From Methylobacterium gnaphalii (GTDB taxonomy: Bacteria > Pseudomonadota > Alphaproteobacteria > Rhizobiales > Beijerinckiaceae), in contig NZ_BJZV01000005.1 in NCBI RefSeq assembly GCF_007992215.1, forward strand, positions 62,001 through 126,000: a stretch of DNA of 64,000 bases, read 5' to 3'. The translations under genes were made by a program, and so were the position numbers. The notes under the pieces were generated by a model. That model was not told the DNA's origin and did no database searches. It worked only from the letters and a program-made list of their open reading frames with translations. Shown here piece by piece: positions 43,599-57,479 of the stretch (positions within the stretch are counted from its first letter, which is position 1; the number at the start of each line of letters is the position of its first letter).

Positions 43599-43615
43599 AG
43601 GCACGCGGCTTGCAA
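43599..43615 (+). promoter_or_regulatory. sigma-54 promoter of nasTS
   Basis: AGGCACG-CGGC-TTGCAA matches the sigma-54 consensus TGGCACG-N4-TTGCW with one mismatch, and the GG and GC cores are exactly ten bases apart. The start point would be near 43,625, about 54 bases before the nasT ATG. Confidence 0.8.
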
Positions 43616-43678: not shown

Positions 43679-44266
43679 ATGACCGAGACCAGCCTCACCG
43701 TTGCCGTGATCGATCCCAGCAGCCTGCGCGCCGCGATCCTCGAAGAGGGCCTGCGCGCCGCCGGGGTCGACTCGGTCGTGGTCGTGCCGGACGGACCCGA
43801 CCTGCAGGCGCGGGTCGGTGCGCTGAAGCCCGACGTGGTGGTGGTGCATCTCGAGAGCCCGAGCCGCGACATCCTGGAACAGATGTCGGGCATCTCGCGG
43901 CATGTGGAGCGGCCGGTGGCGATGTTCGTCGACCGCTCCGACGCCACCATGATGCAGGCGGCGGTGGATGCCGGCATCTCGGCCTATGTCGTCGACGGCC
44001 TGCGCACCGAACGGATCAAGCCGATCCTCGACATCGCGATCCTGCGCTTCAACGCCTTCGCCCGGCTGCAGCGGGAGCTGATGGAGGCCAAGAGCGAGCT
44101 CGCCGACCGCAAGGTGATCGACCGGGCCAAGGGCATTCTGATGAGCCGCAAGGGCTTGCCCGAAGAGGAGGCCTACAAGCTGCTCCGCAAGCAGGCCATG
44201 AACGAGAAGCGCAAGATCATCGACATCGCCCGGGCGATCGTCACGGCGGCGGATCTGCTCGGATGA
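43679..44266 (+). CDS. nasT: ANTAR-domain antiterminator NasT
   Basis: RNA-binding antiterminator of nitrate assimilation genes. 195 residues from the ATG at 43,679. Residues 5-120 form a receiver-like domain (VAVIDPSSLRAAILEEGL, MFVDRSDATMMQAAVDAGI, SAYVVDGL). The phospho-acceptor position reads VVVVHLESPSRD, with His57 where an Asp is usual, so phosphorylation is unlikely. Residues 130-190 form the ANTAR domain (ADRKVIDRAKGILMSRKG, EEEAYKLLRKQAM). In the family, NasS holds NasT inactive until nitrate or nitrite is bound. The stop overlaps the nasS start (ATGA). Confidence 0.92.
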   Translation: MTETSLTVAVIDPSSLRAAILEEGLRAAGVDSVVVVPDGPDLQARVGALKPDVVVVHLESPSRDILEQMSGISRHVERPVAMFVDRSDATMMQAAVDAGISAYVVDGLRTERIKPILDIAILRFNAFARLQRELMEAKSELADRKVIDRAKGILMSRKGLPEEEAYKLLRKQAMNEKRKIIDIARAIVTAADLLG

Positions 44267-45267
44267 GGGTCGATCTCGGATACGTGCCCCTGACGGACGC
44301 CGCTCCGGTCATTGCGGCGGCAGAACTCGGTTTCGCGCGGGAGGAAGGGATCGACCTGGTGCTGTCGCCGGAGCCGTCCTGGGCGACCCTGCGCGACCGC
44401 CTGGCGCTCGGCCATCTCGATGCCGCGCATATGCTGGCGCCGCTGGCGCTTGCGACCCGGCTCGGCCTGTCCGGCCCACAGGCGGATCTCGTGGCGCCGA
44501 TGGCGCTGAACCTCAACGGAAACGCCATCACGGTCTCTCTGCCGCTATGGGAAGCGATGGCTCCAGAGGCCGATGACCTCGACGCGGTGGCCTCGGCCTT
44601 TGCCCGTCTCGCCATGGCGCGGGCAGGGGAGGGAAGGCCGCTGACCATCGCCACCGTGCACCCGTTCTCCTGCCACAGCTACCAGCTCAGGATCTTTGCC
44701 GAGCGGGGCGGCCTCGATCTCGGGCGGGCGGTCCGGATCGTGGTGGTCCCGCCGCCGCAAACCGTCGATGCGCTCCGGCGCGGCGAGATCGACGGGTTCT
44801 GCGTCGGCGCCCCCTGGAACAGCATCGCCGTTGCCGCCGGGCTCGGCCGCATCGCCGCGCTCGGCTGCGAGATCGTGCCCGATTGCCCGGAAAAGGTGCT
44901 CGCCGTGCACGGGTCACAAGCGGAGGCACTGTCCCCCCTGGTGGAGGCGCTGCACCGCGCCGGCACTTGGTGCGCCGACCCGGCCAATGTCGGCGAGTTG
45001 GCCGGCCTGCTCTCGGAGAAGGGCGGCCTCGGCCCCGATACCGATCTGATTCGTCGAACGCTCACCGGTCATCTCGTGGTGGATCCCACGGGGCTGTGCC
45101 GGACCGCCCCCGACTATCTGAGGCTCGGCTCCAGCGTGCATCGGCCGAGGCCAGAACACAGGGCTTGGCTCGCCAGGCAAATGGCGGCATCGGGCCAGAT
45201 CGCCGATGCGACCGAGGTTTGCGAGGAAGCCGAGGCCTTCTATCGGCCAAGCCTGCTCAAAGCTTGA
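44263..45267 (+). CDS. nasS: cytosolic nitrate/nitrite sensor NasS
   Basis: 334 residues of the NrtA/CmpA solute-binding fold but without a signal peptide (it starts MRVDLGYVPLTDAAPVIAA), so it stays in the cytosol. LGHLDAAHMLAPLALA, MALNLNGNAITVS, HPFSCHSYQLRIFAERGG and GFCVGAPWNSIA match ligand-site blocks of nitrate-binding proteins. NasS is known to bind nitrate or nitrite and then release NasT. Translational coupling to nasT (ATGA overlap) fits equal production of the pair. The solute-binding domain would otherwise suggest a transporter, but no secretion signal supports that. Confidence 0.9.
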   Translation: MRVDLGYVPLTDAAPVIAAAELGFAREEGIDLVLSPEPSWATLRDRLALGHLDAAHMLAPLALATRLGLSGPQADLVAPMALNLNGNAITVSLPLWEAMAPEADDLDAVASAFARLAMARAGEGRPLTIATVHPFSCHSYQLRIFAERGGLDLGRAVRIVVVPPPQTVDALRRGEIDGFCVGAPWNSIAVAAGLGRIAALGCEIVPDCPEKVLAVHGSQAEALSPLVEALHRAGTWCADPANVGELAGLLSEKGGLGPDTDLIRRTLTGHLVVDPTGLCRTAPDYLRLGSSVHRPRPEHRAWLARQMAASGQIADATEVCEEAEAFYRPSLLKA

Positions 45268-45336: not shown

Positions 45337-45421
45337 CTTCTTGAGCATTCGTGTGCGCCAGATGCTGCAAGGTGTAGATTTTATCTCTTAAAATCAGCAA
45401 TTTAGCTCAATCCGGCCAATT

Positions 45422-45438
45422 TGGCACGGTTCGTGCAA
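45422..45438 (+). promoter_or_regulatory. sigma-54 promoter of the nrt-nas operon
   Basis: TGGCACG-GTTC-GTGCAA matches TGGCACG-N4-TTGCW with one mismatch and the exact ten-base GG to GC spacing. The predicted transcription start is near 45,448, one base before the first ANTAR hairpin, so the transcript would begin with the regulatory RNA. Confidence 0.82.
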
Positions 45439-45448
45439 ACGTCCCTAC

Positions 45449-45492
45449 ATCCGTCAACGGCGACGGATTCTAGCCGTCAGCAAGGCCGCTGA
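45449..45492 (+). promoter_or_regulatory. two-hexaloop ANTAR (NasT) binding element
   Basis: Hairpin 1 is ATCCGTC, loop AACGGC, GACGGAT (45,449-45,468), a perfect 7-bp stem. Hairpin 2 is TCAGC, loop AAGGCC, GCTGA (45,477-45,492). Both loops have six bases with A at position 1 and G at position 4, the known ANTAR signature. Hairpin 2 uses the bases that form the left arm of the terminator, so binding of NasT would block termination. Confidence 0.88.
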
Positions 45493-45549
45493 TCCGGATC
45501 ATCCCACGCGATGCCATCGCGCGGACGATCTCGACCAGCGGCCTTTTTT
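45482..45549 (+). terminator. leader terminator controlled by NasT
   Basis: AAGGCCGCTG (45,482-45,491) pairs with CAGCGGCCTT (45,536-45,545), ending in six Ts at 45,544-45,549. Inside the arm a second hairpin CGCGAT-GCC-ATCGCG (45,507-45,521) folds. The outer 10-bp stem is incompatible with ANTAR hairpin 2. It ends about 39 bases before the nrtA start. Confidence 0.85.
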
Positions 45550-45587: not shown

Positions 45588-46877
45588 ATGGATTTCGATC
45601 GCAGCAGCACCCGTCGCAGCCTTCTGAAAGGCGCCTCCGCCACCCTCGCGCTGGCCGCCGCCGCGCGCACGGCGCTTCCGGGCGGCGCCTTCGCACAAGG
45701 TGCGGGTCCGGAGGTGAAGGGGGCGAAGCTCGGCTTCATCGCGTTGACCGATGCCGGCCCGCTCTTCGTCGCCAAGGAGAAGGGCATCTTCGCCAAATAC
45801 GGCATGCCCGATGTCGAGGTGCTGAAGCAGGCCTCCTGGGGCACCACCCGCGACAACCTCGTCCTCGGCTCAGAGGGCAACGGCATCGACGGCGCGCACA
45901 TCCTCACGCCGATGCCGTACCTGATCTCGTCCGGCCGCGTGACCCAGAACAACGTGCCGGTGCCGATGTACATCATGGCCCGGCTCAACCTGAACGGTCA
46001 GTGCATCTCGGTCGCCAAGGAGTACATCGACGCCAAGATCGGCGTCGACACCAAGCCCTTCAAGGCGCTCCTCGACGCGAAGAAGGCCGCCGGCAAGTCG
46101 GTCAAGGCCGCCATGACCTTCCCAGGCGGCACCCACGACCTCTGGATCCGCTACTGGCTCGCCGCCGGCGGCATCGACCCCGACAAGGACATCGAGACCA
46201 TCGTCGTTCCGCCCGCCCAGATGGTGGCGAACATGAAGGTCGGCACAATGGACTGCTTCTGCGTCTGCGAGCCGTGGAACGAGCAGCTCATCCACCAGGG
46301 CATCGGCTACACCGCGCTGACCACCGGCGAGCTCTGGAAGGACCACCCGGAGAAGTCGTTCGCCATGCGATCGGCATGGGTCGACAAGTACCCCAACGCC
46401 GCCAAGGCCCTGCTGATGGCGGTGATGGAAGCCCAACAGTGGTGCGAGAAGCCTGAGAACAAGGAAGAGCTCGCGGCCATTGTCTCCAAGCGCCAGTGGA
46501 TCAACGTGCCGGTCGCGGACGTCGTCGACCGCATGAAGGGCAAGTTCGACTACGGCACCGGCCGCGTCGTCGAGAACAGCCCGGTGGCGATGAAGTTCTG
46601 GGCCGACAACGCCTCGTATCCCTACCAGTCGCACGACCTCTGGTTCATCACCGAGGACATCCGCTGGGGTAAGTACGACGCGAATGTCGACGCCAAGGCG
46701 CTGATCGCGAAGGTCAATCGCGAAGATCTCTGGAAGGATGCGGCCAAGGCGCTCGGCGTCTCGGCGATCCCCACCTCGACCTCGCGGGGCAAGGAAACCT
46801 TCTTCGACGGCAAGGTCTTCGATCCGGCCGACCCGGCCGCCTACCTGTCCAGCCTCGGCATCAAGAAGGTGGCGTGA
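45588..46877 (+). CDS. nrtA: nitrate ABC transporter substrate-binding protein
   Basis: 429 residues. A twin-arginine signal peptide is clear (STRRSLLKGASATLALAAAA, cut near AFAQG), so the protein is exported folded. The mature part has the NrtA/CmpA layout: LGFIALTDAGPLFVAKEKGIF, RLNLNGQCISVAKEY, FPGGTHDLWIRYWLAAGGID, CFCVCEPWNEQLIHQGIGY. Binds nitrate, perhaps nitrite, for the permease. Bicarbonate-binding CmpA is the nearest relative; the operon decides for nitrate. The leader carries the NasT-controlled terminator. The stop and the nrtB start share one base (TGATG). Confidence 0.92.
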   Translation: MDFDRSSTRRSLLKGASATLALAAAARTALPGGAFAQGAGPEVKGAKLGFIALTDAGPLFVAKEKGIFAKYGMPDVEVLKQASWGTTRDNLVLGSEGNGIDGAHILTPMPYLISSGRVTQNNVPVPMYIMARLNLNGQCISVAKEYIDAKIGVDTKPFKALLDAKKAAGKSVKAAMTFPGGTHDLWIRYWLAAGGIDPDKDIETIVVPPAQMVANMKVGTMDCFCVCEPWNEQLIHQGIGYTALTTGELWKDHPEKSFAMRSAWVDKYPNAAKALLMAVMEAQQWCEKPENKEELAAIVSKRQWINVPVADVVDRMKGKFDYGTGRVVENSPVAMKFWADNASYPYQSHDLWFITEDIRWGKYDANVDAKALIAKVNREDLWKDAAKALGVSAIPTSTSRGKETFFDGKVFDPADPAAYLSSLGIKKVA

Positions 46878-47749
46878 TGGCCTCGAGCTCCGCACTCTCC
46901 TCGGCCATCGGCGCCGCCCGCGATAAGGCCTCCGCCAGGAGCCGCGGGCCCTTCGTGACCATCAAGGGCATCCGGGCGGTCGCCGCCCGGGTGATCCCGC
47001 CGCTGGTGGTGCTCGCCGGCTTCCTGCTGCTCTGGCAGATGTTGTGCTCCGCCCCGACGGCCGGCCTGCCGCCGCCCTCGCGCGTCGTGTCCGAGGCCTG
47101 GGACATCATCGCCAACCCGTTCTTCGACAATGGCGGCACCGACAAGGGCCTGTTCTGGCACCTCGCCGCCAGCCTGCAGCGCGTCGCTCTCGGCTTCTCG
47201 CTCGCCGTCGTCGCCGGTGTCCTGCTCGGCACGCTGGTCGGCCAGTCGGAATGGGCCATGCGCGGCCTCGATCCGATCTTCCAGGTGCTGCGCACGATCC
47301 CGCCGCTCGCCTGGCTGCCGCTCTCCCTCGCCGCGTTTCGCGATGGGCAGCCATCGGCCATCTTCGTGATCTTCATCACCTCGATCTGGCCGATCATCAT
47401 CAACACGGCGGTCGGCATCCGGAACATCCCGCAGGACTACCGCAACGTCGCCGCGGTCATCCGGCTGAACCCGATCGAGTTCTTCTTCAAGATCATGCTG
47501 CCGTCTGCGGCGCCGTACATCTTCACGGGCCTGCGGATCGGCGTCGGCCTGTCCTGGCTCGCCATCGTCGCGGCCGAGATGCTGATCGGCGGCGTCGGCA
47601 TCGGCTTCTTCATCTGGGACGCGTGGAACTCGTCGCACATCAGCGAGATCATCGTCGCCCTCGTCTATGTCGGGCTCATCGGCTTCGTCCTCGACCGGCT
47701 GGTGGCCGGCGTGGGCTTGCTCGTGACCCGCGGCACCAGCGCAGCCTGA
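46877..47749 (+). CDS. nrtB: nitrate ABC transporter permease
   Basis: 290 residues with about six membrane segments (VIPPLVVLAGFLLLWQML near 38-56, then four to five more). The permease EAA-like loop lies near YRNVAAVIRLNPIEFFFKIMLP. The C-terminus GVGIGFFIWDAWNSSHISEI is typical of NrtB/CmpB/SsuC-type importers. It forms the channel for NrtA and NrtD. It starts at the ATG overlapping the nrtA stop and ends 11 bases before nrtD. Confidence 0.94.
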   Translation: MASSSALSSAIGAARDKASARSRGPFVTIKGIRAVAARVIPPLVVLAGFLLLWQMLCSAPTAGLPPPSRVVSEAWDIIANPFFDNGGTDKGLFWHLAASLQRVALGFSLAVVAGVLLGTLVGQSEWAMRGLDPIFQVLRTIPPLAWLPLSLAAFRDGQPSAIFVIFITSIWPIIINTAVGIRNIPQDYRNVAAVIRLNPIEFFFKIMLPSAAPYIFTGLRIGVGLSWLAIVAAEMLIGGVGIGFFIWDAWNSSHISEIIVALVYVGLIGFVLDRLVAGVGLLVTRGTSAA

Positions 47750-47760
47750 GGAGAACGCGC

Positions 47761-48558
47761 ATGTCCCACCTCACCCTCTCCCAGGTCGGCATCAGCTTCA
47801 CCCGCGCCGGCAAGACCTCCGAGGTGCTGCGCGAGGTCGACCTCACCATCGCCAAAGGCGAGTTCGTCTCGATCATCGGTCACTCCGGCTGCGGCAAGTC
47901 GACGGTGCTCAACATCGTCGCCGGCCTGCTCAAGGCCTCTACCGGCGCGGTGCTGCTCGACGGCAAGGAGGTGAACGCTCCCGGCCCCGACCGTGCCGTG
48001 GTGTTCCAGAACCACTCGCTTCTGCCCTGGCTGACGGTGCGCGAGAACGTCGCGCTTGCCGTCGACAAGGTGCTCGCCGGCAAGAAGAGCCGCACCGAGC
48101 GAGCCGAGTGGATCGAGCACAACCTCGCCCTCGTGAACATGATGCATGCCGCCGACAAACGTCCGGCCGAGATCTCCGGCGGCATGAAGCAGCGCGTAGG
48201 CATCGCCCGGGCGCTCGCCATGGAACCGAAGGTGCTGCTGATGGACGAGCCCTTCGGCGCCCTCGACGCGCTCACCCGCGCGCATCTCCAGGACTCGATC
48301 ATGGAGATCCAGATGCGGCTGAAGAACACCGTCATCATGATCACGCACGACGTGGACGAGGCCGTGCTACTCTCCGACCGCATCGTGATGATGACGAACG
48401 GCCCCTCCGCCACGATCGGCGAGATCCTCGAGGTGCCGCTGAAGCGTCCGCGCCGCCGGCTCGAACTCGTGGAGGATGCCGCCTACGTGCATGCCCGCGC
48501 CGCGGTGCTCGAGTTCCTCTACGCGCGCCACGCCAAGCCCGCCTCTCTCGCAGCCTGA
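47761..48558 (+). CDS. nrtD: nitrate ABC transporter ATPase
   Basis: 265 residues. Walker A GHSGCGKST, Q-loop VVFQNHSLLPWLTV, signature ISGGMKQRVGIARAL, Walker B VLLMDEPFGALDA and switch ITHDVDEAV are all present. The start has GAGGAG eight bases upstream. A large open frame continues far upstream but belongs to the shadow of nrtB. It has a single ATPase domain, the NrtD type, not the NrtC type fused to a binding domain. Energises nitrate import with NrtA and NrtB. Confidence 0.95.
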   Translation: MSHLTLSQVGISFTRAGKTSEVLREVDLTIAKGEFVSIIGHSGCGKSTVLNIVAGLLKASTGAVLLDGKEVNAPGPDRAVVFQNHSLLPWLTVRENVALAVDKVLAGKKSRTERAEWIEHNLALVNMMHAADKRPAEISGGMKQRVGIARALAMEPKVLLMDEPFGALDALTRAHLQDSIMEIQMRLKNTVIMITHDVDEAVLLSDRIVMMTNGPSATIGEILEVPLKRPRRRLELVEDAAYVHARAAVLEFLYARHAKPASLAA

Positions 48559-48577
48559 GGACGAGGGTCAGCGTGTC

Positions 48578-49801
48578 ATGAGTGCGAGGGAAAGACTCGT
48601 CGTCGTCGGCAACGGCATGGCCTCGCTCCGCTTCCTGGAGCGGCTGACGGAACGGGCGCCGGGTCGCTTCGACGTCACCGTCGTCGGGGCAGAGCCGGTC
48701 GCCGCCTACAACCGGGTGCTGCTCTCCTCGCTGCTCGGCGGGGAGGTCGACGAGGCGGCCTGCGGCTTCCGCGGGCTCGACTGGTACGCCGGGCACGGCA
48801 TCCGGCTGATCACGGGCGCACCGGTCACGGCGGTCGACCGCGAGAACGGTCTGGTCGTCGTCGGCGAGACCCACGTCCTGCCCTTCGACCGGCTGGTTCT
48901 CGCCGTGGGCTCGCTGCCGATCCGGTTGCCGCTGCCAGGCGCGGATCTGCCCGGCGTCGTCACGTTTCGCGATTTCGCCGACGTCGCCGCGATCCGTTCG
49001 GCGGCGGTGGACCAGGCGAAGGCGATCGTCATCGGCGGCGGCCTGCTCGGCCTCGAAGCCGCCGTCGGCCTCGCCCGGCTCGGCGTCGACACCACGCTGC
49101 TCCACGTCATGGACCGGGTCATGGAGCGCCAGCTCGACCACACCGCTGCCCGCCTCGTGACGGCAGCGATGGAGGCGCGCGGTGTGACGATGCGGCTCTC
49201 GGCCGACACCGCCGGCATCGAGGGCGACGGGAGGGTCGAGCGCGTGCGGCTCAGGGACGGCACGGTGCTGCCGGCCGATCTCGTGGTGATGTCGGTGGGC
49301 ATCAGGCCCTCGACCGCCCTGGCGCAGGCCTGCGGCCTCGCAACCGGGCGCGGCATCACCGTCGACGACCACATGACGACCTCGGACCCGCGCATCTTCG
49401 CGCTGGGCGAATGCGCCGAGCATCGCGGCATCGCCTACGGGCTCGTCGAGCCGGCCTACGAGCAGGCCGACGTGCTGGCCCGGCATCTCATCGGCGAGGA
49501 GGCGGCCTATGCCGGCACTTCGCTGGCGACGAGCCTCAAGGTTTCGGGCCTGCCGGTCTTCTCGGCCGGCATCGTCGACACGCCCGAGGGCACCGACGCG
49601 ATCACCGTGCACGACGCCGCCGCCGGCCTCTACCGCAAGCTGACGATCATCGATGGCCGCCTGGCCGGCGCGGTCTTTGTCGGAGACATCTCCGAGCAGG
49701 CTCGGTGCAAGGAGCTGATCCGCTCCGGCGCCCCTCTCACCCTCGACGACCGCGACGACCTGATGTTCGGGCGCCGCGAACCGCAAGCCCTTGCAGCGTA
49801 A
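48578..49801 (+). CDS. NirB-N-like FAD/NAD(P)H oxidoreductase
   Basis: 407 residues. Two nucleotide-binding loops: FAD at VVVGNGMASLRFLERL and NAD(P)H at AIVIGGGLLGLEAAVGLARLG. AYNRVLLSSLLGGE and the C-terminal ALGECAEHRGIAYGLV are hallmarks of the N-terminal half of nitrite reductase NirB and of NasB-like electron-transfer proteins. The siroheme and Fe-S half of NirB is absent, so this is a free-standing reductase. It probably passes electrons to NasA or to the nitrite reductase encoded next. Confidence 0.85.
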   Translation: MSARERLVVVGNGMASLRFLERLTERAPGRFDVTVVGAEPVAAYNRVLLSSLLGGEVDEAACGFRGLDWYAGHGIRLITGAPVTAVDRENGLVVVGETHVLPFDRLVLAVGSLPIRLPLPGADLPGVVTFRDFADVAAIRSAAVDQAKAIVIGGGLLGLEAAVGLARLGVDTTLLHVMDRVMERQLDHTAARLVTAAMEARGVTMRLSADTAGIEGDGRVERVRLRDGTVLPADLVVMSVGIRPSTALAQACGLATGRGITVDDHMTTSDPRIFALGECAEHRGIAYGLVEPAYEQADVLARHLIGEEAAYAGTSLATSLKVSGLPVFSAGIVDTPEGTDAITVHDAAAGLYRKLTIIDGRLAGAVFVGDISEQARCKELIRSGAPLTLDDRDDLMFGRREPQALAA

Positions 49802-49806
49802 CGGAC

Positions 49807-51603
49807 ATGACCATGGCCGGAGACTTCAACGCCGAGCAGAAGCGCTACCTCGAAGGCTTCGCCTCGGGCATCGCCGCCGCTCGCCTGACCGGCGGCCTCG
49901 CCCTCGGGGGAGGTGCCGCGGCGGCCCCGTCCGAGCCGACGGGGCCCGATGCGATCCACATCAAGGCGCAGGACAAGACCGTCAAGGACGGCGGCAAGCT
50001 CTGCGACCAGGAGAAGTGGAAGCGGGCCGAGAACCCGTTCGATGGCCATAACCGGCTGATCCGCGAGGCCGCCGCCGGCACCCAGCCGAAGCCGGAGGAC
50101 AATTTCCGCTGGCGCTACCACGGCCTGTTCTGGCTCGCGCCGAACAAGACTCACTACATGTGCCGGATGCGTATCCCGAACGGGATCCTTCAGCACTGGC
50201 AGTTCGCCGGTGTCGCCGATCTCGCCGACGCGCATGGTGGCCCCTACACGCATGTCACGACGCGCGCCAATCTCCAGGTGCGCGAGATCACCCCGGAGCA
50301 CGGCCAGGCCTTCCTCGACGGCCTGACCGATCTCGGCCTGACCGCGCGCGGCGCGGGTGCCGACAACATCCGCAACGTCACCGGCTCGCCCACCGCCGGC
50401 ATCGACGCGCAGGAGCTCATCGACACGCGCCCGCTCGCCAAGTCCTGGCACAACTGGATCCTCAACGATCGCTCGCTCTACGGCCTGCCGCGCAAGTTCA
50501 ACGTGGCCTTCGACGGCGGCGGCGTGATGCCGGTGCTGGAGGAGACCAACGATATCGGCTTCCAGGCCGTCGAGGTGGTGGAGGGAGCAGGCGTCGAGCC
50601 GGGCGTCTGGATGCGCCTCGTCCTCGGCGGCATCTCCGGTCACAGGGACCTCGCCCGCGACACCGGCATCGTCCTCAAGCCCGAGGACTGCAACTTGGTG
50701 GCCGACGCGATCATCCGCGTCTTCATCGAGAATGGCGACCGCACCAACCGGGCGAAGGCGCGGATGAAATACGTCCTCGATGCCTGGGGCTTCGACAAGT
50801 ACCTCGCCGCCGTCGAAGAAAAGCTCGGGCGCAAGCTCGATCGGGTTGCTCCCGAGCACGTTGCTCCTCGCAAGCCGACTGACCGTTTCAGCCATGTCGG
50901 CGTGCACCGGCAGGCGCAGGACGGCCTGAACTGGGTCGGCGTCGTCCTGCCCGTCGGCAAGATGACCACCGACCAGATGCGCGAACTCGCCAGGATCTCG
51001 TCGGAATGCGGCGACGGGCAGATCCGTCTCACGGTCTGGCAGAACTTCATCTTCTCCGGCGTGCCGGACGCCAAGGTCGCCGAAGTCGAAAGTCGCGTGG
51101 CGGCCCTTGGGCTTACCACCAAGGCGGCCGGCATCCGCTCGGGCCTCGTCGCCTGCACCGGCAGTAACGGCTGCAAGTTCGCGGCCGCCGACACCAAGGG
51201 CGACGCGATCCTCATCGCCGACCATGTCGAGCGGACGGTGAGCGACCTAGACGTGCCGGTGAACGTTCACCTCACCGGCTGCCACCATTCCTGCGCACAG
51301 CATTATATCGGCGATATCGGCCTGATTGGCGCCAAGGTGCCCGTGGGCGAGGACGGCGACATGGTCGCCGGCTACGACATCGTGGTCGGCGGCGGCTTCG
51401 CCGAGAACCCGAAGATCGGCACCGAGATCTGGAAGGCCGTGAAGGCCGAGGATTGCCCCGGCCGGGTCGAAGCCCTGCTCAAGACCTACATCGCCCTGCG
51501 CACCAGCAAGGACGAGAGCTTCCAGGCCTTCACCGCGCGCAAAGGCCCCGAGGCCCTGCGTGATGCCGCCGAAGAACAGCCCGTCCTCAAGGCCGCAGCA
51601 TGA
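49807..51603 (+). CDS. nirA: siroheme ferredoxin-type nitrite reductase
   Basis: Reduces nitrite to ammonium with six electrons. 598 residues; a second ATG at 49,813 is possible. Two repeated half-domains are visible: the first with GGPYTHVTTRANLQVREI, ADNIRNVTGSPTAGID and KFNVAFDGGG, the second with TVWQNFIFSGV. The 4Fe-4S/siroheme ligands are Cys450, Cys456 (CTGSNGC) and Cys492, Cys496 (CHHSC). Sulfite reductase is the nearest alternative, but the nas context supports nitrite. The stop overlaps the next start as ATGA. Confidence 0.9.
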   Translation: MTMAGDFNAEQKRYLEGFASGIAAARLTGGLALGGGAAAAPSEPTGPDAIHIKAQDKTVKDGGKLCDQEKWKRAENPFDGHNRLIREAAAGTQPKPEDNFRWRYHGLFWLAPNKTHYMCRMRIPNGILQHWQFAGVADLADAHGGPYTHVTTRANLQVREITPEHGQAFLDGLTDLGLTARGAGADNIRNVTGSPTAGIDAQELIDTRPLAKSWHNWILNDRSLYGLPRKFNVAFDGGGVMPVLEETNDIGFQAVEVVEGAGVEPGVWMRLVLGGISGHRDLARDTGIVLKPEDCNLVADAIIRVFIENGDRTNRAKARMKYVLDAWGFDKYLAAVEEKLGRKLDRVAPEHVAPRKPTDRFSHVGVHRQAQDGLNWVGVVLPVGKMTTDQMRELARISSECGDGQIRLTVWQNFIFSGVPDAKVAEVESRVAALGLTTKAAGIRSGLVACTGSNGCKFAAADTKGDAILIADHVERTVSDLDVPVNVHLTGCHHSCAQHYIGDIGLIGAKVPVGEDGDMVAGYDIVVGGGFAENPKIGTEIWKAVKAEDCPGRVEALLKTYIALRTSKDESFQAFTARKGPEALRDAAEEQPVLKAAA

Positions 51604-53204
51604 CCCAGCACGTCGCTCCCCCGCTCGTCCTGATCCCCGAGACGGCCCCGTTCGACACCGATCAGCGCGCCTGGCTGTCGGGCTATTTCGCGGCCCTGCT
51701 CGGCCCAGCCGTCGGCGGCGCAACCGCGCTGGCGCCAGGCGAGGGCCCCTCGGCCGGCCCGAAGCTCGCCGACAACGATGATGCGCCCTGGCACGACCCG
51801 GCGACGCCGATCGCCGACCGCATGGCGATGGCCAAGGATGCCTCGGAGCCGCAGAAGCTGATGGCCGCCATGGCCCAGCAGGATTGCGGCCAGTGCGGGT
51901 ACAACTGCGCCGACTACGCCAATGCGATCTTCCTCAAGAAGGAGGAGCGGCTGAACCTCTGCCAGCCCGGCGGCAAGGAGACGCTGCGCATGCTCAAGAA
52001 GCTGGAGGAGGAATTCGGCGCCTCCGGCGGCGCGGCCCCGGCAAATGCGGAGTCAGGCGAAACGCCGAAGGCTGACGTTGCGCTTGGTCCCCTCGGCTAT
52101 TGCCGCGAAAACCCCGTCTACGCGACCTTTCTCTCCCGTACGCGCCTGAACGCTCCGGGCGGCGAGAAGGAGACCTGGCACGTCGAGATCGACCTCAAGG
52201 ACACGCCGATCGACTACGCCGTCGGCGACTCCCTCGGGCTGTTCCCGGCCAATGCCCCGGCTTTGGTCGATGCGGTGATCGCCGAACTCGGCGCGCGTCC
52301 GGAGCGGATCATCGGTGGCCGTACGCTGCGCGACGCGCTGCTCACCGACTACTCCCTCGGCGCGGCGCCGGACGGGCTCTACCAGCTGCTCTCGCTGCTC
52401 ACCTCCGGCGAGGCGCGCAAGAAGGCGCAGGCGCTCGCGGCCGGTGAGGATCCGGATGGCGACGCCGCCTATCTCGACGTGCTCGGCGCACTCCACAAAT
52501 TCCCAGGCGCCCGGCCCGATGCTGAAGTCTTCCTGGAGTCGCTCGACGAGTTGCAGCCGCGGCTCTACTCGATCTCCTCCTCGCCGAAGATGGACGCCGG
52601 CCGGGTCTCGCTGACCGTCGACGCGGTCCGCTACAACCATCGCTCGCGCCTGCGGCTGGGCGTCGCCTCGACCCATCTCGGCGAGCGTCTGCCCGAGCAG
52701 ACCAAGGTCAAGATCTACCTGCAGAAGGCGCACGGCTTCGCCCTGCCGGAGGACCTCTCCAAGGACGTCATCATGTGCGGGCCGGGCACCGGCATCGCCC
52801 CGTTCCGCGCCTTCCTGCGCGAGCGTGCCGCCACGGGGGCGCCGGGCCGCAACTGGCTGTTCTACGGCCATCAGCGCCAGGCCTCGGACTTCTTCTACAA
52901 GGACGAGTTGACCAAGCTGCGCGACGACAAGATCCTCACCCGCCTGTCGCTGGCTTGGTCGCGCGACGGCAAGGAGAAGACCTACGTCCAGGATCGCATG
53001 CGCGAGACCGGCGCCGATCTCTGGAAGTGGCTCGAGGGCGGCGCGCATTTCTACGTCTGCGGCGACGCCAAGCGCATGGCCAAGGACGTCGAGCGCGCGA
53101 TCATCGACATCGCCGCCCAGCACGGCGGCAAGAGCCCGGACGAGGCGGTGACCTATCTCGCGGGCCTGAAGAAAGCGGGGCGGTATCAGGCCGACGTGTA
53201 CTGA
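51600..53204 (+). CDS. 4Fe-4S / FAD / NADPH reductase (CysJ-like without flavodoxin domain)
   Basis: 534 residues. Residues 90-125 contain an RnfB-type Fe-S motif: Cys96, Cys99, Cys103 and Cys121 in DCGQCGYNCADYANAI and LNLCQPGG. From about 165 a cytochrome-P450-reductase-like FAD module follows (PRLYSISSSP), then the NADPH module (CGPGTGIAPFRAFLRER, YVQDRMRE, HFYVCGDAKRMAKDVE). The flavodoxin domain of CysJ is missing. Annotated in related genomes as sulfite reductase alpha. By position between nirA and nasA it likely supplies NADPH electrons to the nitrite or nitrate reductase through its Fe-S centre. Confidence 0.88.
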   Translation: MTQHVAPPLVLIPETAPFDTDQRAWLSGYFAALLGPAVGGATALAPGEGPSAGPKLADNDDAPWHDPATPIADRMAMAKDASEPQKLMAAMAQQDCGQCGYNCADYANAIFLKKEERLNLCQPGGKETLRMLKKLEEEFGASGGAAPANAESGETPKADVALGPLGYCRENPVYATFLSRTRLNAPGGEKETWHVEIDLKDTPIDYAVGDSLGLFPANAPALVDAVIAELGARPERIIGGRTLRDALLTDYSLGAAPDGLYQLLSLLTSGEARKKAQALAAGEDPDGDAAYLDVLGALHKFPGARPDAEVFLESLDELQPRLYSISSSPKMDAGRVSLTVDAVRYNHRSRLRLGVASTHLGERLPEQTKVKIYLQKAHGFALPEDLSKDVIMCGPGTGIAPFRAFLRERAATGAPGRNWLFYGHQRQASDFFYKDELTKLRDDKILTRLSLAWSRDGKEKTYVQDRMRETGADLWKWLEGGAHFYVCGDAKRMAKDVERAIIDIAAQHGGKSPDEAVTYLAGLKKAGRYQADVY

Positions 53205-53214
53205 CAGCCCATCA

Positions 53215-53242
53215 AACCTTCCCCCGCTGAGGGGGGAGGGTT
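53215..53242. repeat. GC-rich hairpin repeat before nasA
   Basis: AACCTTCCCCC pairs with GGGGGAGGGTT around a GCTGA-containing loop, with one G-T pair. It resembles the hairpin at 15,172-15,199. No T-tract follows. It lies 10 bases after the reductase stop and about 50 bases before nasA, so it could weaken transcription of nasA and cysG. Confidence 0.5.
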
Positions 53243-53290
53243 CGGCCCGACCCTGCTGTTGCTGACCCCACCCCTGCCGAGGATCACGCC

Positions 53291-55978
53291 ATGACCGTGC
53301 CCGTGTCCGACGCCACGCCAGCCGTCGTGAAGACCACCTGCCCCTATTGCGGGGTCGGCTGCGGCGTGCTGGCGAGCCCGGACGGGCAGGGGGGCGCCGG
53401 CATCGCGGGCGATCCCGGGCATCCCGCTAATTTCGGCCGGCTCTGCTCGAAGGGCTCGGCGCTCGGCGAGACGCTCGGGCTCGACGACCGGCTGCTGCAT
53501 CCGATGGTCGACGGCTCCCGGGTGACCTGGGAAGGCGCGCTCGGCACCGTGGCCGGCAGCCTGCGCAGGATCGCCGAGGAGCACGGCCCGAACGCCATTG
53601 CCTTCTACCTGTCCGGCCAGCTCCTGACTGAGGATTACTACGTCGCCAACAAGCTCGCGAAGGGCTTCCTCGGCACGCCCCATGTCGACACCAATTCCCG
53701 GCTCTGCATGTCGAGCGCGGTGGCGGCGCACCGGCGCGCCTTCGGCTCCGACACGGTGCCCGGCTGCTACGAGGATCTCGACGAGGCCGACCTCATCGTG
53801 CTGGTCGGCTCCAACACCGCCTGGTGCCACCCGATCCTGTTCCGGCGCATGGCCGACGCGAAGGCGAAGCGCGGGACGCGGATCGTCACAATCGACCCGC
53901 GCCGCACGCAGACCGGCGAGGAGGCCGACCTGCATCTCGGCCTTCGGCCAGGCACCGACACCGCCCTGTTCTCGGGGCTGCTCGTGCATCTCGCCACGCA
54001 GGGCGCCGTGGACCGCGGCTACGTCGCCGACCATACCGCAGGCTTCGACGCCGCCCTGGAGCGGGCCCAAAGCATCGCGCCGAGCATCGCCGCCACCGCC
54101 GCCGCGACCGGACTGGGCGAGTCGGACGTCCAGACATTCTTCGAGATGTTCACCCGCACGCGGCGCGTGGTGACCTGTTTCAGCATGGGCGTGAACCAGT
54201 CGGCGCAGGGCACCGACAAGGGCAACGCCATCATCAACTGCCACCTCGCGACGGGACGGATCGGCCAGCCCGGCATGGGGCCGTTCTCGCTGACCGGCCA
54301 GCCCAACGCCATGGGCGGGCGCGAGGCCGGGGGGCTCGCCAATATGCTGGCCGCCCACATGCACTTCGCTCCGGAGGAGGTCGACCGCGTCCGCCGCTTC
54401 TGGGATGCGCCGAACATCATCACCGGCGAGGGCATGAAGGCGGTGGCGATGTTCGAGGCCATCGCGCGGGGCAAGATCAAGGCGCTCTGGGTGATGGGCA
54501 CCAACCCCCTCGTCTCGATGCCCCGCGCCGATGCCGTGCGCGAGGCGATCGCGGGGCTCGATCTCTACGTGGTCTCCGAGGTGCTCGCCACGACCGACAC
54601 CGCCCGGGCCACGGCGAAGAAAACCGTCCTGCTGCCGGCGCTCGCCTGGGGCGAGAAGAGCGGCACGGTCACCAATTCCGAGCGGCGCATCTCGCGCCAG
54701 CGCAGCTTCCTCGCCGCGCCCGGCGAGGCGCGGGCCGACTGGGCGATCATGAGCGACGTCGCCAAGCGCCTCGGCTTCGGAGCCTCCTTCGCCTACACCT
54801 CCGCCGCCCAGATCTTTCGCGAACACGCGGCGCTTTCAGCCTTCGAGAATGAGGGGACCCGCGACTTCGATCTCGGCGGCCTCGCCGAGATCAGCGACCG
54901 CGCCTACGATACCGCAACGCCAGTGCAATGGCCGATCCCGAAGCGATCGGGCGATCCTCGCAAGGGCAGGGCGCGCCTCTTCGCGGACGGGCGCTTCTAC
55001 ACCTTCGACGGGCGCGCCCGCTTCGTTGCGGTTCAGCCGCCGGCCCTGGCCTCGGTCCCGACCGCCGAGCGGCCGCTGATCCTCAACACTGGCCGGGTGC
55101 GCGACCACTGGCACACCATGACGCGCACCGGGAAGAGCCAGCGCCTCTCGGCCCACCGTGCGGCGCCCTTCCTGGAGATCCACCCCGACGACGCGGTGCG
55201 CTACCGGCTGACGGAGGGCGGCTTCGCCCGTGTTTCGACGGACCATGCCAGCGCCATCCTCGAAGTCGCGGTCACCGACGGTGCGCAGCCGGGGAACGTG
55301 TTCGCGCCGATGCACTGGAGCGACATGACCGCCTCGCATGGCCGCGTCGTCGCCCTGGTGCGAGGGGCACCGGACCCGGTCTCCGGCCAGCCCGAGCTGA
55401 AGGCGACGCCGGCCGCCGTCACGCCCGTCGCCTATCGCTCGCGCGGCTACCTGTTGACCCGATCCGCGATGCCGGCCACCGCGGGCTGGTGGTGGACGCG
55501 CGCCGCCGTTCAGGGCGGCCACGGCCTGATCTTCGCGACCCAGGACGGCTCGCGCGAAGTGGCGCTCGCCCTGCGCGGGCTGTTTCCAGGCCACGAGATC
55601 GCCGAGTACTCCGACCATGCCCGCGGGCTCTACCGGCTCGCGGCCTATCGTGACGGCCGCCTCATGGCCTGCCTCGCCGTCGAGGCGGGCGAGCGGCGGC
55701 CGGACTGGGAACTCGCCAAGCAGGTCTTCGCCGCCGACGAGATCACGGCGGCCGACCGGCGCAGCCTGCTCTCGGGAAGGGCGCAGACGGCCTCCGCTGG
55801 CCCGGTGATCTGCGCCTGCCACGGCGTCGGGCTCGACGTCATCACCGCCGCCATCGCGGCAGGCGCCGGCTCGGTCGAGACAGTGGGCGCGGCCTGCAAG
55901 GCCGGCACGAATTGCGGCTCGTGCATCCCAGAGATCCGCAAGCTGCTGCCCGCGGCGCTTGCGCGCGACGCTGCGTGA
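53291..55978 (+). CDS. nasA: assimilatory nitrate reductase catalytic subunit
   Basis: Cytosolic molybdopterin enzyme reducing nitrate to nitrite. 895 residues. The N-terminal 4Fe-4S ligands are Cys17, Cys20, Cys24 and Cys52 (CPYCGVGC and LCSKG). MGVNQSAQGTDKGNAIINCH, TGRIGQPGMGPFSLTGQPNAMGGRE and NTGRVRDHWHTMTRTGKS bind the molybdenum cofactor. The last 60 residues form a BFD-like 2Fe-2S domain (CACHGVG ... CKAGTNCGSC), which probably receives electrons from the flavoproteins of the operon. No signal peptide. It is followed closely by cysG. Confidence 0.95.
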   Translation: MTVPVSDATPAVVKTTCPYCGVGCGVLASPDGQGGAGIAGDPGHPANFGRLCSKGSALGETLGLDDRLLHPMVDGSRVTWEGALGTVAGSLRRIAEEHGPNAIAFYLSGQLLTEDYYVANKLAKGFLGTPHVDTNSRLCMSSAVAAHRRAFGSDTVPGCYEDLDEADLIVLVGSNTAWCHPILFRRMADAKAKRGTRIVTIDPRRTQTGEEADLHLGLRPGTDTALFSGLLVHLATQGAVDRGYVADHTAGFDAALERAQSIAPSIAATAAATGLGESDVQTFFEMFTRTRRVVTCFSMGVNQSAQGTDKGNAIINCHLATGRIGQPGMGPFSLTGQPNAMGGREAGGLANMLAAHMHFAPEEVDRVRRFWDAPNIITGEGMKAVAMFEAIARGKIKALWVMGTNPLVSMPRADAVREAIAGLDLYVVSEVLATTDTARATAKKTVLLPALAWGEKSGTVTNSERRISRQRSFLAAPGEARADWAIMSDVAKRLGFGASFAYTSAAQIFREHAALSAFENEGTRDFDLGGLAEISDRAYDTATPVQWPIPKRSGDPRKGRARLFADGRFYTFDGRARFVAVQPPALASVPTAERPLILNTGRVRDHWHTMTRTGKSQRLSAHRAAPFLEIHPDDAVRYRLTEGGFARVSTDHASAILEVAVTDGAQPGNVFAPMHWSDMTASHGRVVALVRGAPDPVSGQPELKATPAAVTPVAYRSRGYLLTRSAMPATAGWWWTRAAVQGGHGLIFATQDGSREVALALRGLFPGHEIAEYSDHARGLYRLAAYRDGRLMACLAVEAGERRPDWELAKQVFAADEITAADRRSLLSGRAQTASAGPVICACHGVGLDVITAAIAAGAGSVETVGAACKAGTNCGSCIPEIRKLLPAALARDAA

Positions 55979-56000
55979 GGTCACGTTCGCAGTGAGCACG

Positions 56001-57479
56001 ATGTCGAGACCCACGCTTTCGTCGATGAGCACGCCCCGCCAACCCCGCGAAACCCGCGCCGGCCTCGAGCCGCTGGCGGTGCTGCCCGTCTTCGTGCCGC
56101 TGCAGGGCAAGCGCGCCGTGCTCGCCGGCTCGAATGGCGGTGCCCCCTGGAAGGTGAAGCTGCTCGCCGCCGCCGGCGCCCTTGTCGACGTCTACGCGCC
56201 CGAGCCGAGCGAGGAACTGCTGGCCGTGCCGGGCGAGATCGCCGCCGGCTCCGTCACCTTGCACCGGCGCGGCTGGACCCCGGAGGATCTGGCAGGGGCC
56301 GCCTTCGCCATCGGCGCGACGGAGGACGAGGCGGATTGCATCGCCTTCGTCGCCGCGGCGCGCGCGGCCGGCGCCATCGTCAACGCCGTCGACCGGCCGC
56401 ATCTCTGCGACGTGAAGTTCGGCGCCATCGTCAACCGCTCGCCGCTGGTGGTGGGCATCTCCACGGAGGGCGCAGCCCCCGTCTTCGGGCAGACGGTGCG
56501 GGCGCGCATCGAGGCGATGCTGCCGCGCGGGTTCAGTCGCTGGGTTGCGGCAGCGCGCGACTGGCGCGATGGGGTCTCGGAACGCTTCCACGGCTTTGCC
56601 GAGCGCCGCGGCTTCTGGGAGCGTTTCACGGACCGCGCCTTCGCCGAACCCGACCGAGCCCCGACGCAAGGCGATCTCACGGAGCTGCTGGGCGAGACCG
56701 AGGCCGCTCCGAAGGGCGGCGCGGTAACGCTCGTCGGGGCAGGGCCAGGCGATGCCGAGCTCCTGACTCTTAAGGCCCTGCGGGCGCTGCGCAACGCTGA
56801 CGTCATCCTCTACGACGACCTCGTCGCCCGCGAGATCCTCGACTATGCCCGCCGCGAGGCCCGCACCATGCTCGTCGGCAAGACCGGGCACGGCCCCTCC
56901 TGCCGCCAGGACGACATCAACGCACTGATGGTCTCGCTGGCCAAGACCGGCAAGCAGGTGGTGCGCCTGAAATCCGGCGACCCGCTGGTCTTCGGGCGGG
57001 CCGGCGAAGAGCTGGAAGCCTGCCGTCTCGCCGGGGTGCCCTGCACCGTGGTGCCCGGTGTCACGGCCGCCCAGGGCGCCGCCGCCTCGCTCGGCGTCTC
57101 GCTGACCCATCGCGACGCCGCGCGCCGCCTGCAATACGTCACCGGCCACGACCGCCGCGGCGCGCTGCCGGAAGACCTGAACTGGGGGGCGCTCGCCGAT
57201 CCGAGCGTCACCACCGTGGTCTACATGCCCAAGCGCACCCTCGGCGTCCTGCTGGAGCGCGCCATCTCGGAGGGCCTCGCCCCCGCGACGCCAGCCCTCG
57301 TCGTCTTCAACGCCACGCGGCCCGATCAGGCCACCGTGACCGGCACGGCTGCGGACCTCGCGGCACGGATCGAAGCGGCCGGACTCGAAGGCCCGGCGAT
57401 CCTGATGGTCGGCGAGGCGTTAGGCCTCCGCGAGGCCGAGGCGATCATCGGCACCGCGCCGGATCGGCTGGCGATCTGA
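56001..57479 (+). CDS. cysG: siroheme synthase (precorrin-2 dehydrogenase/ferrochelatase + SUMT)
   Basis: 492 residues from the ATG at 56,001; a GTG at 55,992 is also possible. Residues 15-215 form the CysG-B half: LPVFVPLQGKRAVLAGS, NAVDRPH with the catalytic Asp, and SPLVVGISTEGAAPVF. The cofactor loop GSNGGAPWKVKLL differs from the GGGxVAxRK of E. coli, as in alphaproteobacterial homologues known to me. Residues 235-490 form uroporphyrinogen III methyltransferase (LVGAGPGDAELLTLKALRAL, RLKSGDPLVFGRAGEELE). It makes siroheme for NirA. Last gene of the operon. Confidence 0.94.
   Translation: MSRPTLSSMSTPRQPRETRAGLEPLAVLPVFVPLQGKRAVLAGSNGGAPWKVKLLAAAGALVDVYAPEPSEELLAVPGEIAAGSVTLHRRGWTPEDLAGAAFAIGATEDEADCIAFVAAARAAGAIVNAVDRPHLCDVKFGAIVNRSPLVVGISTEGAAPVFGQTVRARIEAMLPRGFSRWVAAARDWRDGVSERFHGFAERRGFWERFTDRAFAEPDRAPTQGDLTELLGETEAAPKGGAVTLVGAGPGDAELLTLKALRALRNADVILYDDLVAREILDYARREARTMLVGKTGHGPSCRQDDINALMVSLAKTGKQVVRLKSGDPLVFGRAGEELEACRLAGVPCTVVPGVTAAQGAAASLGVSLTHRDAARRLQYVTGHDRRGALPEDLNWGALADPSVTTVVYMPKRTLGVLLERAISEGLAPATPALVVFNATRPDQATVTGTAADLAARIEAAGLEGPAILMVGEALGLREAEAIIGTAPDRLAI

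Follow-up and report, generated by a model that had tools for sequence, protein, structure and literature searches.

In Paracoccus denitrificans, NasT binds the nasA leader when nitrate is present, following its nitrate-driven release from NasS (PMC3795266), and the leader hairpins HI and HII have been probed by mutation (PMC5424462). Hairpins for NasT have also been predicted in the narK leader of Bradyrhizobium diazoefficiens (PMC6759348). An ANTAR dual-hairpin RNA consists of two hairpins of at least 3 bp separated by a variable linker (Ramesh et al. 2012); both six-base loops have A as their first and G as their fourth base (A1 and G4), the second hairpin overlaps an intrinsic terminator, and binding of an ANTAR protein leads to read-through. 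A NasS-NasT system comprises an ANTAR-type NasT and an NrtA-like NasS encoded together, with nitrate or nitrite freeing NasT from NasS and an operon for nitrate or nitrite metabolism as the target. No description of a NasT leader in Methylobacterium was found in the open-access literature searched. Here, a 64-kb stretch of DNA (the window) from a Methylobacterium genome of 4.78 Mb was analysed, and the 5' leader of its nrtA nitrate-assimilation operon is, with high probability, a NasT-dependent transcription antitermination element. The genes around this leader are arranged as follows.

43679-44266, + strand: nasT, a receiver-like and ANTAR RNA-binding regulator (Pfam ANTAR, E=1.7e-20).
44263-45267, + strand: nasS, an NrtA-like sensor of nitrate/nitrite with no obvious signal peptide (Pfam NMT1_2, E=2.7e-65).
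45588-46877, + strand: nrtA, the nitrate ABC transporter binding protein and first gene behind the switch (Pfam NMT1_2, E=7.2e-110).
46877-48558, + strand: nrtB and nrtC, the nitrate ABC transporter permease and ATPase (NCBIfam TIGR01183 and TIGR01184, above cut-off).
48476-57479, + strand: rest of the block, namely a NirB-N-like FAD oxidoreductase, a NirA-family nitrite reductase, a CysJ-like flavoprotein, a molybdopterin nitrate reductase and cysG (starts not refined).

The nasT and nasS genes overlap by four bases and lie directly upstream of the leader, so that an ANTAR NasT and an NrtA-like NasS, the latter resembling the NrtC/CmpC regulatory domain and NrtA structures, are encoded together. 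Downstream, nrtABC, the nitrite and nitrate reductases and cysG make up the nitrate and nitrite metabolism target, and the block from nrtA to cysG is presumably co-transcribed. Between these two groups of genes, the leader contains two hairpins (HP1 and HP2) and an intrinsic terminator.

45449-45468, + strand: HP1, 7 bp, with ATCCGTC and GACGGAT enclosing the hexaloop AACGGC (45456-45461; A1 and G4), read directly.
45476-45493, + strand: HP2, the antiterminator hairpin, 6 bp including one G-U, with GTCAGC and GCTGAT enclosing the hexaloop AAGGCC (45482-45487; A1 and G4).
45482-45549, + strand: intrinsic terminator, with the arms AAGGCCGCTG (45482-45491) and CAGCGGCCTT (45536-45545), an inner hairpin in between and six T at 45544-45549.

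The two hairpins are separated by a linker of 7 nt, and the 5' arm of the terminator lies wholly within HP2, where it comprises the loop and the 3' arm. Because bases 45482-45491 are common to both, HP2 and the terminator are mutually exclusive. The preliminary description of this DNA had placed two hairpins with A1/G4 hexaloops, followed by an intrinsic terminator sharing these ten bases with the second hairpin, behind nasT and nasS and before nrtA; the loops proved base-exact, the arms and T run were recovered, the overlap is exactly as claimed, and the gene positions were confirmed. The calculated fold of 45449-45549 has an energy of -48.3 kcal/mol (z = -5.0), and none of 200 shuffles was equally stable. 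A scan of both strands of the window for a pair of AxxGxx hexaloops of which the second can pair with a downstream arm that leads into a run of T returned this one match, and none in 40 dinucleotide shuffles of the window. When the terminator condition was dropped, two of ten shuffles contained one double hexaloop each; double hexaloops alone thus occur by chance, and what discriminates is their overlap with the terminator. In calculated folds of the growing RNA, HP1 and HP2 persist to ~45537, while the terminator is ahead from 45541, the final difference being ~11 kcal/mol (-48.8 for the terminator fold vs -37.5 for the HP1 and HP2 fold). Judged from its sequence, the leader has the features of an ANTAR dual-hexaloop antiterminator, and together with the neighbouring genes it fits a NasS-NasT system.

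The transcript that carries the leader may start immediately before HP1. Only two strong sigma-54 sites are present on both strands of the 64 kb, and one of these, which was absent from the preliminary description and is added here, precedes the first hairpin.

43599-43613, + strand: sigma-54 (-24/-12) promoter-like site AGGCACGCGGCTTGC before nasT, found by sequence scan.
45421-45436, + strand: sigma-54 (-24/-12) promoter-like site TTGGCACGGTTCGTGC before HP1, with GG at 45423-45424 and GC at 45435-45436, from the sequence.

The GC of the latter site is 12 bases from HP1. As the usual sigma-54 geometry fixes the start relative to the -24/-12 site, this gap predicts a transcript start at ~45448, at the foot of HP1. 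The host genome encodes rpoN, and the site recurs with near-fixed spacing to HP1 across most of the genus; by analogy with homologues, it is likely to serve as the promoter and to set this start.

Conservation of the element was followed with a covariance model of HP1 and HP2 built from the leaders of 24 relatives. An exact-complement scan of the relatives had missed most true leaders because many of their terminator stems contain G-U pairs, and it was replaced by sigma-54 anchoring and alignment. A MAFFT alignment of genus and rhizobial leaders, which shifted the rhizobial HP1 by two bases, was kept out of both the covariation analysis and the model. The model matches 110 of the 111 genomes of the genus, the sole miss being a 70% complete assembly, and NasT was detected in 109. 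Among the 24 relatives, HP1 is paired in 98.4% of cells and three of its seven pairs have changed on both sides, a pairing that was lost in a control in which the partner strand was slid. HP2 is paired in 99.3% of cells, with pairs that vary one-sidedly only. The terminator helix is paired in 99.6% of cells and displays no covariation beyond shuffles among these leaders, since it is nearly invariant. G4, likewise, never varies in either loop among the 24 leaders. The rhizobial comparison set was chosen by patterns favouring A1 and is therefore not counted as independent evidence for this base.

In the genome itself, the leader scores 64.9 bits against the model and the next match 25.9 bits; the latter (C3:5032) has neither promoter nor terminator, is coding-like and was rejected. 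With a single strong element in the genome, one switch therefore serves one long gene block. The genome search for further double-hexaloop elements proposed in the preliminary description thus left this leader as the only strong match, and the claim of a complete NasT-type leader before nrtA was borne out, as every structural element is present and conserved in the genus and the genes for the trans-acting proteins adjoin the leader. From its position between nasS and nrtA, the terminator would also block read-through from nasTS, and it could accordingly be viewed as a constitutive attenuator or as the end of the nasTS transcript, with the double hexaloop incidental or vestigial. Such a reading is very improbable, as a plain nasTS terminator would need neither HP1 nor HP2, whereas the hairpins, the loop identities and their overlap with the terminator are kept across the genus, HP1 covaries, and a sigma-54 site stands directly before it.

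The neighbouring NasT is the probable reader of the leader. It is similar to the structures of Rv1626, EutV, NasR and AmiR. In EutV, the RNA is contacted by R142, K143, K147 and M172 (PMC8934654); in a pairwise alignment, R144, K145, R149 and M174 of NasT align to these residues, and all four are invariant in 19 NasTs, suggesting that they are the corresponding RNA contacts. At the phospho-acceptor position (codon 57), the alignment of the 19 NasTs has His in all five Methylobacterium proteins aligned and Asp in the 14 others. This replacement would agree with NasT being controlled by NasS and not by phosphorylation. The NasT locus comparison covered the 80 nearest NasT loci listed by the contig scan. 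It could be asked whether an RNA-binding regulator other than NasT reads the leader, but this is barely conceivable: a search of the host genome for ANTAR proteins matched nasT only, which is also the adjacent gene, and across the genus the element and NasT are found together (110/111 and 109/111).

Taken with the homologous systems, on which NasS-NasT sensing, RNA binding, promoter use and the direction of the effect are modelled, these features suggest how NasT-dependent antitermination would proceed. RNA polymerase with sigma-54 would start at ~45448, probably with NtrC as a putative activator under nitrogen limitation, leaving HP1 at the extreme 5' end of the transcript. As long as nitrate is absent, NasS would hold NasT, and as the polymerase advances, the far more stable terminator (45482-45545) would displace HP2, so that transcription would halt ~40 nt upstream of nrtA. 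In the presence of nitrate or nitrite, NasS would let NasT go, and the ANTAR domains of the free protein would bind the hexaloops of HP1 and HP2. HP2 would then be held, the 5' arm of the terminator would be unavailable, and the operon would be read; in terms of the calculated folds, a protein clamping HP2 between ~45537 and 45541 would give read-through. Very probably, the switch restricts expression of the nitrate-use genes of this Methylobacterium to conditions in which NasS/NasT reports nitrate. The readable nitrate RNA switch of the preliminary description is thus the best-supported reading, with NasT binding and nitrate-dependent read-through drawn from homologous systems, and strictly speaking it is no riboswitch, because sensing would be done by the protein NasS. 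As Methylobacterium is a widespread genus of plant-associated methylotrophs, assigning a concrete, testable switch to its nitrate operon may be of value. The regulator is of a known type and the mechanism is not new, the leader being a well-formed new example.

Variation within the genus separates the requirements for A1, G4 and the terminator. In nine of the 24 leaders (L065-L071, L073 and L075), the first base of the HP2 loop is G (GAGGCC or GAGGCT), with G4 and the terminator kept; A1 of this loop is hence not strictly kept across the genus (G1 clade). The one G1-type leader checked for its gene, L069, precedes an FAD oxidoreductase, not nrtA. In addition, 12 of the 111 Methylobacterium genomes carry nrtA away from nasTS, with its own sigma-54 site and a double AxxGxx hexaloop and with no U-tract terminator (L176:1900-2060, L177:2002-2160, L178:1855-2009, L179:1880-2035, L180:2021-2180 and L182-L186). 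The pattern search for this second element had matched 49 genomes, mostly by chance, and 12 seem genuine. Ten elements of this kind were aligned; in nine, the sequence ahead of the gene lacks any run of four U, and the single such run of the tenth is not placed as a terminator tail.

ANTAR hits without terminators may act on translation (Ramesh et al. 2012; PMC3369931), and together with these 12 genomes this raises the question of whether the element described here, too, acts mainly on translation or Rho access and not by intrinsic antitermination. For this leader, such a role is extremely improbable, as its strong terminator takes in precisely the loop and 3' arm of HP2 and stops ~40 nt upstream of the nrtA ATG, and HP2 is clear of the ribosome-binding region, as seen in the sequence and in calculated folds. 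While intrinsic antitermination by NasT is preferred for the nasTS-linked leader, it could tentatively be speculated that functions are split in Methylobacterium: the clade with G1 in HP2 keeps the terminator, and there mainly G4 might be read, as in the EutV crystal, and the nrtA elements unlinked from nasTS lack a terminator, so that the same NasT might antiterminate at one operon and use Rho or translation at another.

Outside the genus, in the leaders of Mesorhizobium and its relatives (L086-L111, L132 and L136), HP1 follows the sigma-54 site at a distance of ~33-38 nt. This gap contains an additional small 5' hairpin, in many cases with a UUCG-like loop, which is absent in Methylobacterium. 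A third AxxGxx loop in these leaders was considered and rejected, as the extra hairpin mostly has other loops.

At the gathering threshold, Rfam returned no match for the leader, and miRNA-family matches on the terminator stem were rejected as inverted-repeat artefacts far below threshold. Against the narK RNA family (RF03032), the leader scores 26.9 bits (45423-45489), below the gathering score of 43.2 bits, and is not counted as a member, although its parts have counterparts in the family. The consensus of this family contains a -24/-12 sigma-54 site, an AACGGC hairpin and CGAC-AAAGAC-GUCG, a second AxxGxx hexaloop that is unpaired in the model. RF03032 has nine matches below threshold in the order, of which at least four (L195, L196, L197 and L199, the last a Methylobacterium nrtA leader) have two AxxGxx hexaloops before nitrate-assimilation-type genes. 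From these parts of the consensus, the sub-threshold double hexaloops and the independent prediction for the B. diazoefficiens narK leader (PMC6759348), the Rfam narK RNA seems to represent an element of this kind, and the family may be suggested as an ANTAR element for NasT with an unannotated second hairpin. Unlike in the present leader, the terminator falls outside the narK RNA model, and the downstream gene here is nrtA, not narK.

Compared with the experimentally described systems, the locus resembles the nasA leader of Paracoccus denitrificans (PMC3795266, PMC5424462) in having nasT-nasS directly upstream, hairpins in an intergenic leader and a nitrate assimilation operon downstream. It differs in that the first gene is nrtA, encoding part of an ABC transporter, in the sigma-54 site immediately before HP1, and in the His57 of NasT in place of the phospho-acceptor Asp. 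The RNA architecture is like that of the Enterococcus faecalis EutV dual-hexaloop RNA (PMC3369931, PMC8934654), with two hairpins, six-base A1/G4 loops and the second hairpin embedded in an intrinsic terminator, yet EutV responds to ethanolamine via a phosphorylating kinase and not to nitrate via NasS, and the linker and stems differ. Finally, NasT and leader hairpins are shared with the nosR, nirA and narK leaders of Bradyrhizobium diazoefficiens, where an interaction of the nosR leader with NasT has been reported (PMC6759348); there, several operons, including denitrification genes, are targets, whereas the Methylobacterium genome holds one strong element.
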